DNA of 64,000 bases from Methanothrix harundinacea 6Ac. Lineage in GTDB: Archaea > Halobacteriota > Methanosarcinia > Methanotrichales > Methanotrichaceae. The stretch covers positions 2,170,001-2,234,000 of the forward strand of contig NC_017527.1 of assembly GCF_000235565.1 (NCBI RefSeq), in the 5' to 3' direction. Numbering within the stretch: position 1 is the stretch's first letter; every line of letters begins with the position of its first letter. The notes below the pieces were generated by a model. The model did not search any database. It worked only from the letters and a program-made list of their open reading frames with translations, and had not been told where the DNA came from. Made by a program: the position numbers and the translations under genes. Shown piece after piece: positions 17,556-64,000 of the stretch.

Positions 17556-19421
17556 TCAGGAGGCCTGGAGCCTCTGGAGGGCCGCCGCCCTGTTCGCCCT
17601 CGCGTCGGCGAAGGCGGGGTCGAGCTCCAGGGCCCGGCCGTAGCAGTCGGCCGCCTCCCGGTAGCGGCCCAGGTGGTAGAGGGATGCGCCCTTGTTGTTC
17701 CAGGCCCGGGGGTGGGCGGGGTCGATATCGATCGTCCTGTTGTAAGCCTCGAGGGCCTCCTCGTTCTTCCCCAGAGCGGTGAGGACGACCCCCCGGTTGT
17801 TCCAACCCTCGGCGAGGGCGGTGTCCGCTTCCAGGGCCCGGTCTATGGACTCGAGGGCCTCGTCGGTATCGCCGAGGGTGAAGAGGATCCACCCCCGGTT
17901 GTTCCACGCCTCGGCGTGGCCGGGGTCGAGCTCTGCCGCCCGGGTGAAGTGGGCGAGCGCCTCCTCCGGCCTCCCGGAGGAGTAGGCAAGGATCCCCTTC
18001 CGGTACCAGGGGGGCTCGTACTCGGGGTCGAGCTCCAGGGCCCGGTCGAAGGCCTCCGCCGCCTCCGCCGCCCGGTTCAGGTCGGCGAGGGCGACCCCCC
18101 GGTGGTGCCAGGTCTCGGCCCTCCCGGGGTCGAGCTCCAGGGCCTTCTCGTAGCAGACGAGGGCCTCCCCCGGCCGCCTCATCTGGTAGAGGGCGTGGCC
18201 CTTGCTGTGCCAGGCGTCGGCGGAGGTGGGATTGAACCTGATCGCCTCGTCGAAGGCCTTGATGGCGTCGAAGTACCGCCCTTCCAGGTATAGGACGGAG
18301 CCCCGGTTGTACCAGGCGATCTCGTAGCCCGGATCGATCTCCAGGGCCCGGTCGTAGCTCTCCAACGCCTCCTCCTCCCTGCCCAGGGCGGCGAGGGCGG
18401 CGCCCCGGTTGTTCCAGGCGAGGGCGAAGGCCGGCTCGACCTCCAGGGCCGAATCGTACGCCTCGACCGCCTCATCGTACCTTTCGAGGTCGAAGAGGGC
18501 CCGCCCCCGGTTGTACCAGGCGAGGGCGAAGGAGGGGTCGATATCGATCGATCGGTTGTACGACTCCAGGGCCTCCTCGGAGCGGCCGAGGTTCGCGAGG
18601 GCTAGCCCCCGGTTGTTCCAGGCGAGGAGGTAGCCGGGGTCGGCCCGGAGGGCGGCGTCGAAGCTCTCCACCGCCTCCTCGTACCTCCCCAGGACCCCCA
18701 GGATGAGCCCCCGATCGTTCCAGGCGGCCTTGTCCCCGGGATCGGCCCCGACGGCCCCGTCCAGCCTGGCGAGAGCCTCCTCGTCCCTCCCCAGGGCCCG
18801 GAGGAGCTCGGCCGCCCCCTTCCAGGACCCGACGAGGCCGGAGTCGATCGCCAGGGCAGAGGCGTAGCATTCGAGGGCCTCCTCCGGCCTGCCGAGGGCC
18901 CGGAGGGCGTTCCCCCGGTTCTGCCACGCCGCCGCAAGGTCCGGGTCAGAGCTGATGGCCCGCTCAAAAGAGGATGCCGCCTCCTCGTACCTCCCGAGGG
19001 CCCCCAGGATCAGCCCCCGGTTGTTCCAGGCCTTCCCGTTCTCTGGATCGATGGTGAGGGAGCGGTTGTACGCCTGGAGGGCCTCATCGACCCTGCCGAG
19101 GAAGGAGAGGGCGTTGCCGAGCTCGTACCAGACTACGCCATCCTCCGGATCGATCCCGAGGGCCCGCTCGAAGGCCTCGACGGCCATCTCCCGGTCGGTG
19201 AGGTTGTAAAGGGCGATCTCCCCCCGGAGGACCCAGGCCTCGGCCAGGTCCGGGTCGAGGGCGAGGGATCGGTCGAGGGAGGAGAGGGCGAGGTCGATCG
19301 CTCCCTCCTGGCGGTATCGTTCCGCCTCCTCCAGCCACCCTTCGGCGGATTCTTCATCTCCCAGGGCCGGGTCCGCCAGGGCGAGGAGGGGGATCAGCAG
19401 GAGGAGGACGCCGAGTCTCAT
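17556..19421 (-). CDS. Secreted/membrane-exposed tetratricopeptide repeat protein
   Basis: A 621-residue protein with a signal peptide ([21 protein letters not shown]) followed by about 17 tandem 34-residue TPR units of the type [24 protein letters not shown] solenoids bind peptides or partner proteins; no catalytic domain is visible. The open frame extends upstream to 19844 but only as a shadow of the next TPR gene, so the ATG at 19421 before the signal peptide is chosen. A TATA-like AGGTATATCGG (about 19448-19457) about 30 bases upstream suggests a leaderless mRNA. A paralogue lies directly upstream. Confidence 0.88.
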
Positions 19422-19501
19422 GGAGGGCGAGATCCCCCTCGCCTCCGATATACCTTTTGGTTCCCCCGCCGGCAGGATGGGAGAAGGGGTGCCGTCGGCG
19501 G

Positions 19502-22500
19502 CTACCTCGAGCTGAGCTCGATGAACTTGTCGTAGCATTCGACGGCCTTCCTGTGCTGCCCCAGCTTGTAGAAGGCGTCCCCCTTCCGGTTCCAGCTCCT
19601 GGCATCCCCCGGATTTATGGCCAGAGCGGAATCGTAGCTCTCTATCGCCTCCTCGTGCCTCATGAGGCCGTCTAAGGCCGTCCCCCGAATGTACCAGAGG
19701 TCGGCGGAGGCGGGATCGATCGCAAGAGCCCGGTCGTAGCTCTCGACCGCCTCCTCCAGCCTCCCCAGGCTCTGGAGGATCGTGCCCCTGTTCCGCCATA
19801 CCGCCCCGTCGGTGGGGTCGATCCCGGCGGCGACGTCGTAACAATCGAGGGCCTCAGAGGGCCTCTTCATGCTGGAGAGGAGGTCCCCCTTCCTCTTCCA
19901 GACCTCGGCGGAGGAGGGGTCGGCCTCGGAGGCCCTCTCATAGCTCTCCAGAGCCTCTCCCGTCCTGCCCAGCCCCGCCAGGACCCCGCCCCTCCGGAGC
20001 CACGCTCCGGCGTCGGCGGGTCGAGGGCGATGGCCGCCTCGTAGCATCCGATCGCCTCCTCCGCCCGGCCCTGGGCCTCGAAGACCGAACCCCTCCCCCG
20101 CTGCGCCTCCCCGGAGGAGGGGTCGAGGGCGATCGCCCGATCGAAGGAGGCGGCGGCATCCTCCAGCCTCCCCGCCTTCATGAGGGCCCGGCCCCTCATC
20201 GACCACGCCTCCGGATCCTCTTGATCGAGGGCGATGGCCCGATCGAAGGAGGCTACGGCATCCTCGAGCCTCCCCGCCTCCTCCAGGACCCCGCCCCTCC
20301 CGATCCAGAGGAGGTTATCCGAGGAGTTGATGGCGATAGCCCGATCGTAGCTGTCTATCGCCTCGTCGTACCTCAGGAGGCCCGCCAGGGCGAGCCCCCG
20401 GCCGTGCCAGGCGCCGCCGTCCTCGGAGGCGTTCGCCAGGATCCGATCGAAGGTGGCGGAGGCCTCCTCGAACCTCCCGAGGGCGAGGAGGGCCTCCCCC
20501 CTCCCCCGGGCCGCCTCCAGGTCGTCGGGGTCCTCCTGAAGGGCGAGGTCGTAGGAGGCGAGGGCGCCATCGTAATCTCCCAGCCTCAGGAGGACGAACC
20601 CCCTCCTGAGGATGACCTCCTCATAGCCGGGGTCTATCTCGACGACGCGGTCGTAGCATTCGGCGGATCGCTCATAATCGCCGAGGATCTGGTGGGCCAG
20701 ACCCTTCTGGTACCAGGCCTTCGCCTCCAGGGGGCTCACCTCTAAAACCTTCTCGTAGCATTCTATCGCCTCGTCGTACCTCCCCAGGCTGTAGAGGGCC
20801 TCCCCCTTCTCGTACCGGTCGAGCTCTATGACCCGGTCGTAGCTCTCTATCGCCTCGCCGTACCTCCCCAGGCTGAAGAGGACGACCCCCCGGTTGTACC
20901 AGAGGGAGACCTCCGACGGGCTGATCTCCAGGGCCTCGTCGTAGCAATCTATCGCCTCATCAGACCGCCCGAGGGCGTAGAGGGCGAGCCCCTTCAGCCT
21001 CCAAACCCCCTCATAAGAGGGGTCGATCTCGATCACCTCGTCGAAGCTCTCGACCGCCTCCTCCAGCCGGCTCGCGTTGTAGAGGAGGAGGCCCCGGTTG
21101 TACCAGACCGCCGGGTCGCCGGGATAGAGGGCGATCGCCCCGTCGTAAGCCTCGACCGCCCGATCGTAGATCCCGGCGGCGGCGAAGGCGTCTCCCATCC
21201 CGACCCAGGCGTCGACCCGGGAGCCGTTGAGGGCCGCCGCCTCGCCGTAGCTGGCGGAAGCCTCCTCGTACCTCCCCAGGGTGTAGAGGGCCACCCCCCG
21301 GTTGTACCAGGCGTTCTCGTACCCCGGGTCGATCCCTATTACATCGCCGTAACACCCGACGGATTCGTTGTACCTCTCGAGGGAGTAGAGGATGTTGCAC
21401 CTGTTGTTCAGGACTTCCGGCCGGCGCGGGCCCGCCTCCAGGGCCTCGTCGTAACAGTCGAGGGCCTCCTCGTACCTGCCGAGGCTGCCCAGGGCGAGGG
21501 CCTTGTCGTACCAGACGTCCCCATTCTCCGGGTCGATCTCCAGCACCCGGTCGTAGCAGCCCGCGGCCTCGTCATACCTACCCAGGCTGTAGAGGGCGAG
21601 CCCCCGGTTGTACCACGCCTCCGACAGGTTCGGGTCGATCTCGATCAGCCGGTCGTAGGCCTCCAGCGCCTCCTCCCCTCTTCCGAGCCGCTGGAGGACC
21701 ACCCCCAGGTTGTACCAGGGGTTGGAGTACTCCGGATCTATCTCCACCGCCCTCCGATAACATTCCTGGGCTTCGTCGAACCTTCCGAGGGCGTAGAGGG
21801 CGTTCCCCTTGTTGTTCCAGACGGCGACGAGGCTAGGATCGATATCGATAGCCCGGTCGTAGCAGTCGATCGCCTCCTCCACCCTCCCGAGGCTGTAGAA
21901 GGCGAGCCCCTTGTTGAACCAGGCGGGGTGGTAAAGGGGGTCGATCTCGACGGCGGCGTCGTAGCATTTGAACGCCTCCTCATGCCTTCCGAGGGCGTAG
22001 AGGGCTATCCCCTTGTTGTACCAGACGTCGGTGAGGGAGGGGTCGATATCGATCGCCCGGTCGTAACAATCGATCGCCTCCTCCGCCCTCCCGAGGCTGT
22101 AGAGGGCGAGAGCCTTGCCGTGCCAGGAGGCGGCGTCATCCCCGTCGATGGTGATGGCGAAGTCGTAAGATTCGATGGCCTTCTCGTAACGCCCAAGGCC
22201 GCAGAGGGCGAGCCCCTTCTGGTACCAGAGGTCCCCCTGGGCGGGGTCGAAGACGATGGCCTCATCGTAAGACCTCACCGCCTCCTCATACCTCCCCAGG
22301 CTGTAGAGGGCGAGCCCCCTCGCCCGCCATAGGTCGGGGCCGGTGGAGTTGAACTCCATCGCCCGGTCGTAACAGTCGATAGCCTCGTCGTAGATCCCCA
22401 GGCCGTAGAGGACGAAGCCCTTGCTGTACCAGATGTGGGGGTCCTGGGGGTCGATCTCCAGGGACCGGTTGAAGCAAGACAGGGCCTCGTCCAGCCGTCC

Positions 22501-60048: not shown

Positions 60049-60199
60049 ATTATCTGTTTGGGTGGCGCCCCCCAGGCTTCAAAAATGTGAAATAGGCCGA
60101 TGGATCTAATACCCAGCCATGATCGGAAGTGTGCCCGCCGATGCCCGCCGTCTTGGTGGCAATGCTGGAGTACGAGGCCCAGCCAGGTGGAGGGTTTTG

Positions 60200-61459
60200 A
60201 TGATGGGAACCTGGGGGATCCTCGCCCTCCTCATCGCCTCGGGGACGGGGGCCTCCGGGGGGCTGGTCACCTTGCGCCTCGACGACGGGACGGCGGAGAA
60301 CGGCTTTCGGATGGGCGGCGACCTCGGCCACGCCGTCGTCTTCGAGCCCCCAGCCGGAGAGTGGACGATAAAGTCTGTCGGGGTATATGGGAAGCTAGAG
60401 CCGAACAGGACCTCCGACCTCTTCGTCCTGGAGATCTGGGACGGTGACCTGAACGCCGTCTCGAAGGTGACGGAGAGGGCCGACTCCTACTTCGGGGAGG
60501 AGTTCGGCTGGGCTGTGGTGGACCTCCCCGACGTCCAGGTCTCCGGCCCCTTCCTGGTCGCCCTCTACGAGTTCGGCGGGGTCTTCGTGGGCACCGACCT
60601 CGGTCCCGCCACGAATAAGTCGCTATTGACGGCGAGAAACCCCAACCGCATCCTCCGGTGGGAGCTGGAGGGGAGCCCCCAGAACGAGACCGAATGGATG
60701 ATCCGGGCCCTCGGGTCCTCCCCCGCCCCGGAGGTGGTGAGCCTGAAGGTCCTCTCCGGAGGCGCAAGCCCGAGGAGCCCCGCCGGTATGGAGGTGGAGC
60801 TCTCCGACCCCGACGAGAACCTCCGGAGGGCGACCCTCTACCTCGCCGATGACGAATCGGGAGAGGTAGTATGGTCTGACTTCCGAGAGCTGGAGGGGGG
60901 GGAGGCGACGGCGGAGTTCTCCTGGCCGGGGACGGCCTTCCAGGTTTCAGACCCCAACGGAACCGTCTATCCCGTCCTGCCGTCGGTGGTGGAGGGGGTG
61001 AGAGAAGAGCTCCAGCCGATCCTGGCCCGATCTCTCCCTTGCGTCCTCCTCCTCGATTTCGGCGAGACCCAGGTTCCCGCCTACGCCTACTTCGGCGAGG
61101 ACGGAAAGCTCAACGCCCTGATAGACCAGTCCGGCTCCGTCCACTACGCATCCCGGCAGGTCCTCAACGCCACCGCCCCGGGGGCGGACTACGTCGGGTA
61201 CGTGGCGAAGAACGTCACCGCCTCCCGGGGCGATACCGCCGTAGCCTTCTACAAGGTGATCGCCGAACCCGGCTTTGAGACCCTTTCGACGGAATTTCAC
61301 GAGCTTTTGATCCTCAGCCGGTCTCCCCTCTTCAACTACAGGGTCGTCCTCGAAGAGGTGGAGGCGATGGCCGGGGTGTACGTCCCAATCGTCCTGGCAG
61401 AGGACGAGGCCTACAACGCCGTCTGGTTCACCGGGCCGGCAGAAGTGAGAATCATTTGA
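60200..61459 (+). CDS. Hypothetical secreted protein
   Basis: A protein of 419 residues starting with a signal peptide (MMGTWGILALLIASGTGASG) at the ATG 60200, six bases after GGAGG. The mature protein has beta-rich, jelly-roll-like blocks (GGLVTLRLDDGTAENGF, SDLFVLEIWDGD), a middle Ig-like part (VEVELSDPDENLRRATLYLA) and a C-terminal block. I do not recognise a family. Together with the following genes it may belong to a surface-protein region. T-rich sequence near 61496-61503 could end its transcript. Confidence 0.6.
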   Translation: MMGTWGILALLIASGTGASGGLVTLRLDDGTAENGFRMGGDLGHAVVFEPPAGEWTIKSVGVYGKLEPNRTSDLFVLEIWDGDLNAVSKVTERADSYFGEEFGWAVVDLPDVQVSGPFLVALYEFGGVFVGTDLGPATNKSLLTARNPNRILRWELEGSPQNETEWMIRALGSSPAPEVVSLKVLSGGASPRSPAGMEVELSDPDENLRRATLYLADDESGEVVWSDFRELEGGEATAEFSWPGTAFQVSDPNGTVYPVLPSVVEGVREELQPILARSLPCVLLLDFGETQVPAYAYFGEDGKLNALIDQSGSVHYASRQVLNATAPGADYVGYVAKNVTASRGDTAVAFYKVIAEPGFETLSTEFHELLILSRSPLFNYRVVLEEVEAMAGVYVPIVLAEDEAYNAVWFTGPAEVRII

Positions 61460-61569
61460 ACTGTAAATCCGATTTCGCCAGCCTTGGGCAACATATATTT
61501 TTTGATTATCATCGGTCTACGCCCTCCGAAGCTATGGCGGATATCTAATTCCAGCGGCTCTTGAAGGAG

Positions 61570-61599
61570 AGAAATATTTATATTCTTCTAATAAGAAGA
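61570..61599 (+). promoter_or_regulatory. TATA box with an adjacent inverted repeat
   Basis: A TATA-like AAATATTTATATTC (61572-61585) is followed directly by TCTTCT (61584-61589)-AATA-AGAAGA (61594-61599), a perfect 6-bp inverted repeat. The ATG at 61606 lies about 25-30 bases after the TATA box, so this is probably a leaderless promoter with the repeat between the TATA box and the start, a place where a regulator could act. Confidence 0.5.
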
Positions 61600-61605
61600 T
61601 ATCAT

Positions 61606-61944
61606 ATGATAGAGGAGGAGATCTCTCTGCATATATTACGTTATTTGATCCCATCCATGACTTTCCTTCTGATATTCCAGGGAGCCTCTGCCATCGACAT
61701 GTACTTCTCGGCGAGGGATGGCAGCAGGACCGTCGGGGTGGTCGAATCTTACGACGTCGACGAGAGGATCGGGGTCAGCAGCAGCGCCTCGGCGAGCTTC
61801 GACGGCGAATTTCGAATCGCCGAGAAGAACTGCCTCTGGGTCTCGGGGAACTCCTCCCCGGATACCGGCATCAACAACCCTTGGAGGGTTCTGCCGCGGA
61901 TGCCGCAGAGGCTATCGCCCCAAATCCCTATTTATTTTAAATAA
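61606..61944 (+). CDS. Truncated paralogue of the repeat surface protein
   Basis: A 112-residue product with the same N-terminal pattern as the next gene: signal peptide ending LIFQGASAIDMYFSARDGS, then ESYDVDERIGVSSSASASFD. After about residue 85 similarity stops and a short unrelated tail (WRVLPRMPQRLS) ends at 61944. It looks like a remnant or a minimal member of the surface protein family. The ATG at 61606 rather than TTG 61561 is chosen because of the TATA box placement. Confidence 0.55.
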   Translation: MIEEEISLHILRYLIPSMTFLLIFQGASAIDMYFSARDGSRTVGVVESYDVDERIGVSSSASASFDGEFRIAEKNCLWVSGNSSPDTGINNPWRVLPRMPQRLSPQIPIYFK

Positions 61945-61992: not shown

Positions 61993-62021
61993 TTTCTACG
62001 ACTTGTAGAAAAGTTTATCTT
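61993..62021 (+). promoter_or_regulatory. Inverted repeat and TATA box of the repeat surface protein
   Basis: TTTCTAC (61993-61999)-GACTT-GTAGAAA (62005-62011) is a perfect 7-bp inverted repeat. It runs directly into a TATA-like AGTTTATCTT (62012-62021), with GGAGGAGGG about 30 bases further on. This suggests a regulated promoter for the gene starting near 62062. Confidence 0.5.
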
Positions 62022-62061
62022 GTGCGATGCAAAAGCGGTCGTAGCTGGAGGAGGGAGATCT

Positions 62062-64000
62062 CTGTCTGGATCGCGTAGGCTTTTGATATCTATAACCTGC
62101 CTTCTGATATTTCAGGGGGCCTATGCCATCGATATGCACTTCTCGGCGAGCGATGGCAGTGGAGATAGGGTGAGCATCTGGGACTCCTACAACGTCGACG
62201 ACGACGTCAAGGTGTGGGGGAAGTCGTCGGCCGGCTTCGGGGAAGGCCTGAAGATCGACGACATCAGAGGGCTTGCAGGGCCCGGGAGCATCTACGCCGT
62301 CCAGGGATATGCCGGGAGCGGCGGCTACGTCGGCATGAGCTACATCTATGCCGAAGATGCATCCCAGACCCTGGCCCGAGGGTCAGCCCATCTCACCCCC
62401 GATGCCCTGGGGGTCGTCCAGGACGTCTCCATAAAGGACGCTGAGATGAGCGCCGTCGTCTCCACCGCAGACCGGTGCGGCCGGGGGGCGATGCAGCACG
62501 CCTTCGTCGGGGACGGGTCCCTCAAATCCACCCAGACGATCAGCGTCAACGGAGGGATCGCCACCTCCCAGGATACTCAGATGGTCGGGTACCTTCCGAC
62601 GGCCTTCGGGACCGCGGGTTACATGGACGTAAACATGGGCCCTGGAACTCTGAACCTCCAGGGTGAGGGAGCTGCCGTGGCGGTATCATCCCTGGACGTC
62701 GCGGGGCCCGCGACCGTCGACTGTAAGCTCGCCACGGGGACGGGAAACAGCGCCTGGGCTTATGGCGACATAAGATATGCTGAAAGCGACCTCGGGGCGG
62801 TAGGCGCGGCCGCGGGGGCGGGAAAGATCGACCTCGAAGCCGACTGGACAGGGGGCCTTCCGGGGCTCTTCATAGACGGCTATGGAGAGGCGGCGGCGGC
62901 CGGAATCGGTGCCATCGGCCTGGATAACGAGATCAAAGGTACCCTGGAAGCCCGGACCGGGGATGCCGGAACCTCCGCCTCCGGCAGGGGCATTGAGGCC
63001 TCCAACAGGGAAGGCATCGTCGCCGCAGCAGCAGCAGCCGGAAACCTGGGGGTTGGGGTTGACCTCCAGAACGGCATCATCGGAGGTGGCGCGGAGGCTG
63101 CGGGCGTCGGAATCCTGGCAGAAGGCAGAAAGAATGAGATCACTAGCGAAACCCTGGCGGCAGGAACTGGATTCTATGGGACCGGCGCCTACGGCGGAGG
63201 CATTGAGGCCTCCAACAGAGTAGGAACCGTGGTGGCAGCCGCTGCCGCCGGGGGGCTAGGCGGGATCGTCGACCTCCAGAACGGTTTCATCGGCGGAGGG
63301 GCGGAGGCCGCTGGCGTGGGAGTGATGGCTGAAGGCCGGAGAAACTGGATCGCAAGCGACGTCCTGGCGGCCGGAACCGGATGGGATGGAACCGGCGCCT
63401 ACGGCGGAGGCATAGAGGCTCAGAACAGGGAGGGTGCGATTGGAGCTGCAGCGGCCGCCGGAGGCCTGGGTGCAGGTATCGACCTCCAGAACGGTTTCAT
63501 CGCAGGATGGGCGGAGGCCGCTGGCGTGGGAGTCATGGCTGAAGGCCGGAGAAACTGGATCGCAAGCGACGTCCTGGCGGCCGGAACCGGATGGTATGGA
63601 ACCGGCGCCTATGGCGGAGGCATAGAGGCTCAGAACAGGGAGGGTGCGGTTGGAGCTGGAGCGGCCGCCGGAGGCCTGGGTGCAGATATCGACCTCCAGA
63701 ACGGTTTCATCGCAGGATGGGCGGAGGCTGCTGGCGTGGGAGTCCTCGCAGAAGGATACAGAAACCGGATCAGCAGCGGTACCCTGGCGGCCGGAACCGG
63801 ATGGTATGGAACCGGCGCCATCGGCCAAGATATCGAAGCCTCCAACAAGGAGGGTGGAGTTGCCGCGGCCGCCGCCGCTGGCGGCCTGGGCGCAAGCTTC
63901 GACCTCCAGAGTGGATTCATAGCCGGAGGCGCAGAGGCCGCAGGAGTCGGAGTCCTCGCTGAAGGAAGAAGGAACGAGATCAGCAGCGGTACCCTGGCGG
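62062..64000 (+). CDS. Large repeat-rich surface protein, incomplete at the right edge
   Basis: One frame stays open for at least 646 codons from 62062 to the end. The likely start is a CTG (or TTG 62083) after GGAGG; it gives a signal peptide (SGSRRLLISITCLLIFQGA) and then a beta-rich non-repeat region (IDMHFSASDGSGDRVSIWDS) to about 62940. From 62941 a 70-residue unit recurs at an exact 210-base spacing: TLAAGTGWYGTGAYGGGIEA then NREGAVGAGAAAGGLGA then DLQNGFIAGWAEAAGVGV. The Gly/Ala-rich pattern suggests a beta-solenoid or elongated surface fibre. The size beyond the window is not known. I do not recognise a named family. Confidence 0.75.
   Translation, partial: MSGSRRLLISITCLLIFQGAYAIDMHFSASDGSGDRVSIWDSYNVDDDVKVWGKSSAGFGEGLKIDDIRGLAGPGSIYAVQGYAGSGGYVGMSYIYAEDASQTLARGSAHLTPDALGVVQDVSIKDAEMSAVVSTADRCGRGAMQHAFVGDGSLKSTQTISVNGGIATSQDTQMVGYLPTAFGTAGYMDVNMGPGTLNLQGEGAAVAVSSLDVAGPATVDCKLATGTGNSAWAYGDIRYAESDLGAVGAAAGAGKIDLEADWTGGLPGLFIDGYGEAAAAGIGAIGLDNEIKGTLEARTGDAGTSASGRGIEASNREGIVAAAAAAGNLGVGVDLQNGIIGGGAEAAGVGILAEGRKNEITSETLAAGTGFYGTGAYGGGIEASNRVGTVVAAAAAGGLGGIVDLQNGFIGGGAEAAGVGVMAEGRRNWIASDVLAAGTGWDGTGAYGGGIEAQNREGAIGAAAAAGGLGAGIDLQNGFIAGWAEAAGVGVMAEGRRNWIASDVLAAGTGWYGTGAYGGGIEAQNREGAVGAGAAAGGLGADIDLQNGFIAGWAEAAGVGVLAEGYRNRISSGTLAAGTGWYGTGAIGQDIEASNKEGGVAAAAAAGGLGASFDLQSGFIAGGAEAAGVGVLAEGRRNEISSGTLA
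62941..64000 (+). repeat. Tandem 210-bp coding repeats
   Basis: Units begin at 62941, 63151, 63361, 63571, 63781 and 63991 (the last cut by the edge). The CTGGCGGC...GGAACCGG start marks each unit after the first, which is more diverged. The 63361 and 63571 units are nearly identical, so recent unequal exchange or gene conversion is likely. Period equals 70 codons exactly, keeping the reading frame. Confidence 0.9.

Follow-up and report, generated by a model that had tools for sequence, protein, structure and literature searches.

The window analysed here is a stretch of 64,000 nucleotides (C2:2170001-2234000) in the two-contig genome (2,571,034 bp) of Methanothrix harundinacea 6Ac. At its end lies a gene for a long repeat protein, which runs past the window to a stop codon at position 65148 in window numbering (C2:2235148). 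Counted from the TTG at 62020 proposed by the ORF finder, the open frame comprises 1042 amino acids (L007:3020-6148). This TTG directly abuts a TATA-like box and is thus too close to it to serve as a start. The likely start codon is CTG 62062-62064, located six bases past the ribosome-binding site GGAGGAGGG, and a CTG or TTG is aligned at this position in the orthologues. An earlier note on this DNA had proposed an inverted-repeat promoter. An inverted repeat is present (TTTCTAC-gactt-GTAGAAA, 61993-62011), and its right arm forms the first half of GTAGAAAAGTTTATC. The proposal is not supported, since the palindrome is not conserved in the orthologues, in which only GTAGAAAAGTTTATC, a BRE/TATA-like element, is recognisable. 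As for quorum-sensing control through FilR1, the published work (PMC3991700) gives no binding motif.

The deduced protein begins with a signal-peptide-like N-terminus (SGSRRLLISITCLLIFQGAYA, followed by IDMHF, as judged by eye), as had been claimed before, and an alignment indicates that this leader is conserved among the relatives. The mature protein contains 20% Gly and 18% Ala, in line with the previous description of a Gly/Ala-rich 70-residue unit. A conserved N-terminal core follows the leader; its Cys at amino acid 235 (VDCKLA) is shared by all six members of this repeat-protein subtype. No hydrophobic C-terminal anchor was found in the repeat protein. The features of the locus are listed in Table 1.

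Table 1. Features at the repeat-protein locus, in window coordinates
Feature	Position	Strand	Basis
446-aa secreted protein, candidate sheath companion	60119..61459	+	homologues beside SH or repeat-protein genes
Truncated repeat-family paralogue, probably a remnant	61561..61944	+	66% identity with the second paralogue across 80 aa
BRE/TATA-like core promoter GTAGAAAAGTTTATC	62005..62019	+	recognisable in G014 and G009, changed in G012
Ribosome-binding site GGAGGAGGG	62047..62055	+	direct reading; GGAGGG in most orthologues
Repeat-protein gene from the likely CTG start	62062..64000, on to 65148	+	open frame; CTG/TTG aligned behind GGAGG in orthologues
Signal peptide SGSRRLLISITCLLIFQGAYA, likely cleavage before IDMHF	62062..62127	+	positive n-region, hydrophobic core, A-Y-A; by eye
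N-terminal beta core, aa 37-323	62128..62988	+	alignment, Cys list, AlphaFold2 pLDDT mostly 80-96
70-aa unit 1	62989..63198	+	ungapped families, unit comparison
70-aa unit 2	63199..63408	+	ungapped families, unit comparison
70-aa unit 3	63409..63618	+	ungapped families, unit comparison
70-aa unit 4	63619..63828	+	ungapped families, unit comparison
70-aa unit 5	63829..64000	+	window end cuts the unit; units 6 and 7 lie beyond the window
Recent exchange tract, two adjoining 210-bp stretches 97.1% identical	63308..63727	+	pair and sliding identity

The repeat protein carries seven tandem units of 70 amino acids, six of them close to one another and one (unit 7) diverged, and a degenerate unit precedes unit 1 (amino acids 258-322). 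Together with this degenerate unit, the five unit starts in the IEASN phase give the six starts at 210-base steps inside the window that had been noted previously. Tandem Repeats Finder agrees, reporting an array of period 210 with a score of 913 at 63061-64000, and ungapped sequence families recur at exact 210-bp steps within the gene. Over the full length of the gene, DNA self-identity at lag 210 is 0.53, whereas the maximum in 200 codon shuffles scanned over lags 30-1200 was 0.36; the spacing is thus far beyond chance. The repeats had been called exact, which is true of their spacing but not of their sequence: in fixed phase, DNA identity is 70-89% among units 1-6 and 51-61% for unit 7. In the best phase, positions 63308-63517 are 97.1% identical to the adjoining 210 bp, which bears out the claim that two neighbouring units are almost identical. 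Sliding identity exceeds 95% in two tracts, both of which cross unit borders, and together with the 97.1% pair this is the mark of a recent unequal exchange or conversion. Differences fall mostly on third codon positions in four of the five pairs formed by adjoining close units, as expected if selection keeps the protein repeat. Elsewhere in the window (18292-22318), several 102-bp repeat arrays (34 codons) probably encode TPR proteins.

The gene located 3' of the repeat-protein gene starts with an ATG right after the stop codon (gap 0) and encodes a protein of 295 amino acids. Its leader is hydrophobic and ends with ISSASA before ASY (alignment, by eye), and its C-terminal sequence is GTYDI...DWLSCC..GC...VFGCV. 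A profile of 23 such partner proteins was compared with four canonical SH proteins and matched with a probability of 99.2% (hhalign, E 3.5e-19) over 71 C-terminal columns spanning the motif G-YDI...DDWLPCC..GW...FDCTC, a match confined to some 70 C-terminal residues of the partner. By its sequence, the partner is an SH-family sheath protein. SH proteins are characterised by a core of two six-stranded beta-sheets; the AlphaFold2 model of the partner is of low confidence (pLDDT 30.7). One of the four reference proteins is an ORF at 650 kb in a genome of 1,879,471 bp taken for that of M. thermoacetophila PT. It probably corresponds to Mthe_0625, given its spacing to the S-layer gene (taken for Mthe_0677, 715 kb) and to the SH cluster, in which three secreted ORFs at 702-705 kb were taken for Mthe_0666-0668 (Mthe_0667 and Mthe_0668 being SH genes; spacing from PMC11576556 and PMC10470525). 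Mthe_0625 is among the three most transcribed SH genes (PMC11576556).

The SH partner family is present in 50 of 50 genomes of Methanotrichaceae; outside this family, it was found in only nine genomes, seven of them from one family, in a draw of 394 genomes at the level of the phylum. This distribution agrees with the narrow spread described for SH proteins (PMC11576556). A partner-type SH gene (E 1.6e-143) on a contig of a genome from another family (G085:C57:2472-3395) reflects either a transfer or a misbinned contig. A scan of IMG/VR confirmed no viral SH relatives of the partner. Through the 295-aa gene, we matched named relatives, namely Methanothrix harundinacea UBA475 and UBA1 and other bins of Methanothrix or Methanotrichaceae.

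A second tandem pair follows the first one. It is repeat-poor and consists of a 363-aa relative of the N-terminus of the repeat protein and a second copy of the 295-aa gene, 93% identical. Terminator-like hairpins stand directly 3' of both 295-aa genes, with a regional frequency not above that of shuffles. Two such pairs occur in G009 and three in G008. In the genus of the window, an SH partner lies at most 300 bp behind 8 of the 12 intact repeat-family genes, the other four standing before another family member or alone. The order of a long repeat protein followed by an SH gene was found in 7 of 11 genera of Methanotrichaceae, the genus of the window included. The paired repeat proteins reach 669 aa in G049, 741 in G003, 1051 in G036, 1788 in G004, 3028 in G006 and at least 4679 in G030; in G002 and G024 the pair is present and the repeat protein is cut by contig ends. 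The two giants (L118 1964-16000 in G030; L112 3739-12822 in G006) are Gly-rich secreted repeat proteins. Gaps of -52 to +18 bp separate the two genes in most pairs from the window's genus, as well as in G049, G003, G006, G004, G036, G030 and G002. Pairing is not strict in either direction. Most SH partners in genus g8 have no repeat protein in front, which indicates that this type of SH protein can do without one, and some relatives of the repeat protein lack an adjoining SH gene, including L008 in the M. harundinacea genome.

Two further genes upstream belong to this neighbourhood. The truncated paralogue at 61561-61944 matches the family profile (E 5e-27) over positions 2-70 only, and an intact short pair stands in its place in G009. 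The 446-aa protein is 35% identical to a protein adjoining an SH gene in the genome of M. thermoacetophila size, and at 20 of the 34 loci with strong homologues, an SH or repeat-protein gene stands no more than 3 kb away (chance about 0.005 per locus). It belongs to no Pfam family, and homologues occur in 44 of the 50 Methanotrichaceae genomes.

Unequal exchange and length variation had been proposed for the array. We count seven units here, eight in the G012 orthologue and five in that of G009, the relatives' counts being taken from metagenome bins, in which tandem repeats can be miscounted, one of them with unread bases in the array. The first three units of G012 match its units 4, 5 and 6 at 90, 90 and 98% DNA identity, respectively, which reads as a single recent duplication of 630 bp (three units). 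The last units are orthologous between species; for several of the inner ones, the nearest relative is a neighbour within its own genome. The proposal thus stands in so far as unit number changes, with the reservation that the relatives are metagenome assemblies. The type of repeat changes as well: in the G014 orthologue most of the 70-aa units are lost and beta-helix-like GGGI repeats take their place, and among other relatives we found Ala/Gly units of 62-79 aa and Gly-rich GGDG types. Repeat number and type therefore vary between species, whereas both leader and SH partner are conserved.

The structure prediction suggested in the earlier note was carried out with AlphaFold2 on the N-terminal core plus three units, and yielded an all-beta model (pLDDT 81.6, pTM 0.82) from an alignment of 16 sequences. 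In the model, a unit comprises two strands, each roughly 25 residues long, and a 13-residue tip of low confidence, GVGVDLQNGIIGG. Foldseek found no match in the PDB at E 0.001; ApoB and outer-membrane barrels ranked best, with TM 0.09-0.14, suggesting generic long antiparallel meanders. A BFVD match (E 1.7e-5) was not taken as homology, its TM being 0.10. Searches of Pfam (E 1), NCBIfam and PDB sequences gave nothing meaningful for the repeat protein, an NCBIfam match to SfsB (E 0.00055) being far below the cut-off and falling within Ala/Gly-rich sequence. PHROGs gave two isolated weak matches, Pfam (E 1) detected no Ig-like domain in the window protein, and with E relaxed to 10, the N-terminal profile still had no match in the genome taken for strain PT.

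We propose, with a probability of roughly 0.6, that the repeat protein is a secreted, length-variable structural component of the sheath, made together with its SH partner. Since a sheath-protein gene lies directly behind it, a surface location is likely. A protein that is secreted, lacks a membrane anchor and is made with a sheath protein would most likely reside in or on the sheath. According to this proposal, the repeat protein and its SH partner would be exported together, and the repeat protein would become part of the sheath or be attached to it. Its N-terminal core, which holds the conserved Cys, would dock to the Cys-rich SH protein; Cys 235 could form the link. The repeat stretch would act as a cap, stalk or spacer, the length of which shifts by unequal exchange. 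Each unit is predicted to add its two strands to an antiparallel beta-sheet and to carry a flexible tip, so that length would grow stepwise with unit number. The repeats may project outward or continue the beta-sheet of the sheath.

An unlikely alternative is that the protein represents a multi-core SH protein, the units of which would be strands of a cross-beta ring filling several positions of the sheath hoop. The model is all beta and apparently continuous and antiparallel, two strands per unit would suit an antiparallel ring, and 63 proteins with two or three repeated SH cores have been reported (PMC11576556). However, core and units show no profile similarity to SH proteins (hhalign probabilities of 2.4%, 0.3% and 0.1%), and the C-terminal Cys motif of these proteins is absent. 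Judged on its sequence, the repeat protein is thus not an SH protein; homology of its core with the SH partner itself was likewise rejected by profile comparison.

The surface fibre envisaged in the earlier note fares differently in its two parts. A surface location is retained, but the evidence favours the sheath over a fibre or adhesin that is free or separately anchored and beside an SH gene by chance or for shared regulation. We consider such a fibre rather improbable: the protein is secreted, repetitive, Gly/Ala-rich and of variable length, and Gly-rich beta-helix-like repeats replace the units in some relatives, yet it has no hydrophobic C-terminal anchor and the close pairing with SH genes extends across genera. 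A component of the spacer plugs between filament cells is very improbable. Plug proteins are still unidentified (PMC11576556, PMC6242892) and the gene is co-encoded with that of a sheath protein, but nothing speaks positively for a plug, and the varied repeat types and lengths among the relatives suit a conserved plug poorly.

Extending the sheath-component reading to the whole family, Methanotrichaceae may possess a modular two-gene system, in which SH proteins provide a constant base and beta-repeat proteins a swappable, length-variable exterior or spacer, gain and loss of units tuning the surface of the sheath or the geometry of its hoops. We regard this as possible rather than probable. 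The 2024 survey reports that the context of SH genes held no clue to additional sheath or plug proteins (PMC11576556), and no sheath protein of M. harundinacea is named in a published study of electron uptake in strain 6Ac. Two concrete candidates come from the locus described here: the repeat protein and the 446-aa protein, each of which is associated with SH genes in several genera. What else the sheath contains thereby becomes testable in the filamentous methanogens that give anaerobic granules their cohesion.

Bacterial Rib, Rip and other periscope-type proteins carry near-identical repeats, the number of which changes the length of the protein. The repeat protein would work alike, although it has no sequence or fold match with them, belongs to a different domain of life and, unlike bacterial tandem-repeat surface proteins, lacks a wall-anchor motif. 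MspA of M. thermoacetophila PT (Mthe_1069, ABK14853.1), likened here by description, is an abundant, beta-rich, sheath-associated protein of the same archaeal family. The SH proteins (Mhun_2271 of M. hungatei; Mthe_0667, Mthe_0668 and Mthe_0625 of M. thermoacetophila; PMC11576556, PMC10593813) share their C-terminal Cys motif with the partner, and both are secreted, encoded by tandem-duplicated genes and confined to few archaeal groups. The repeat protein has no sequence similarity to them and is longer, with its seven 70-aa units, and among relatives the paired repeat proteins run to more than 4,600 aa, unlike SH proteins. A parallel in design is found in the 'sheath adhesins', SH proteins with Ig-like chains (PMC11576556), which also are sheath elements with an extended repeated part; there, the repeats are Ig-like and fused to an SH core, whereas here they form a separate protein encoded beside the SH gene.
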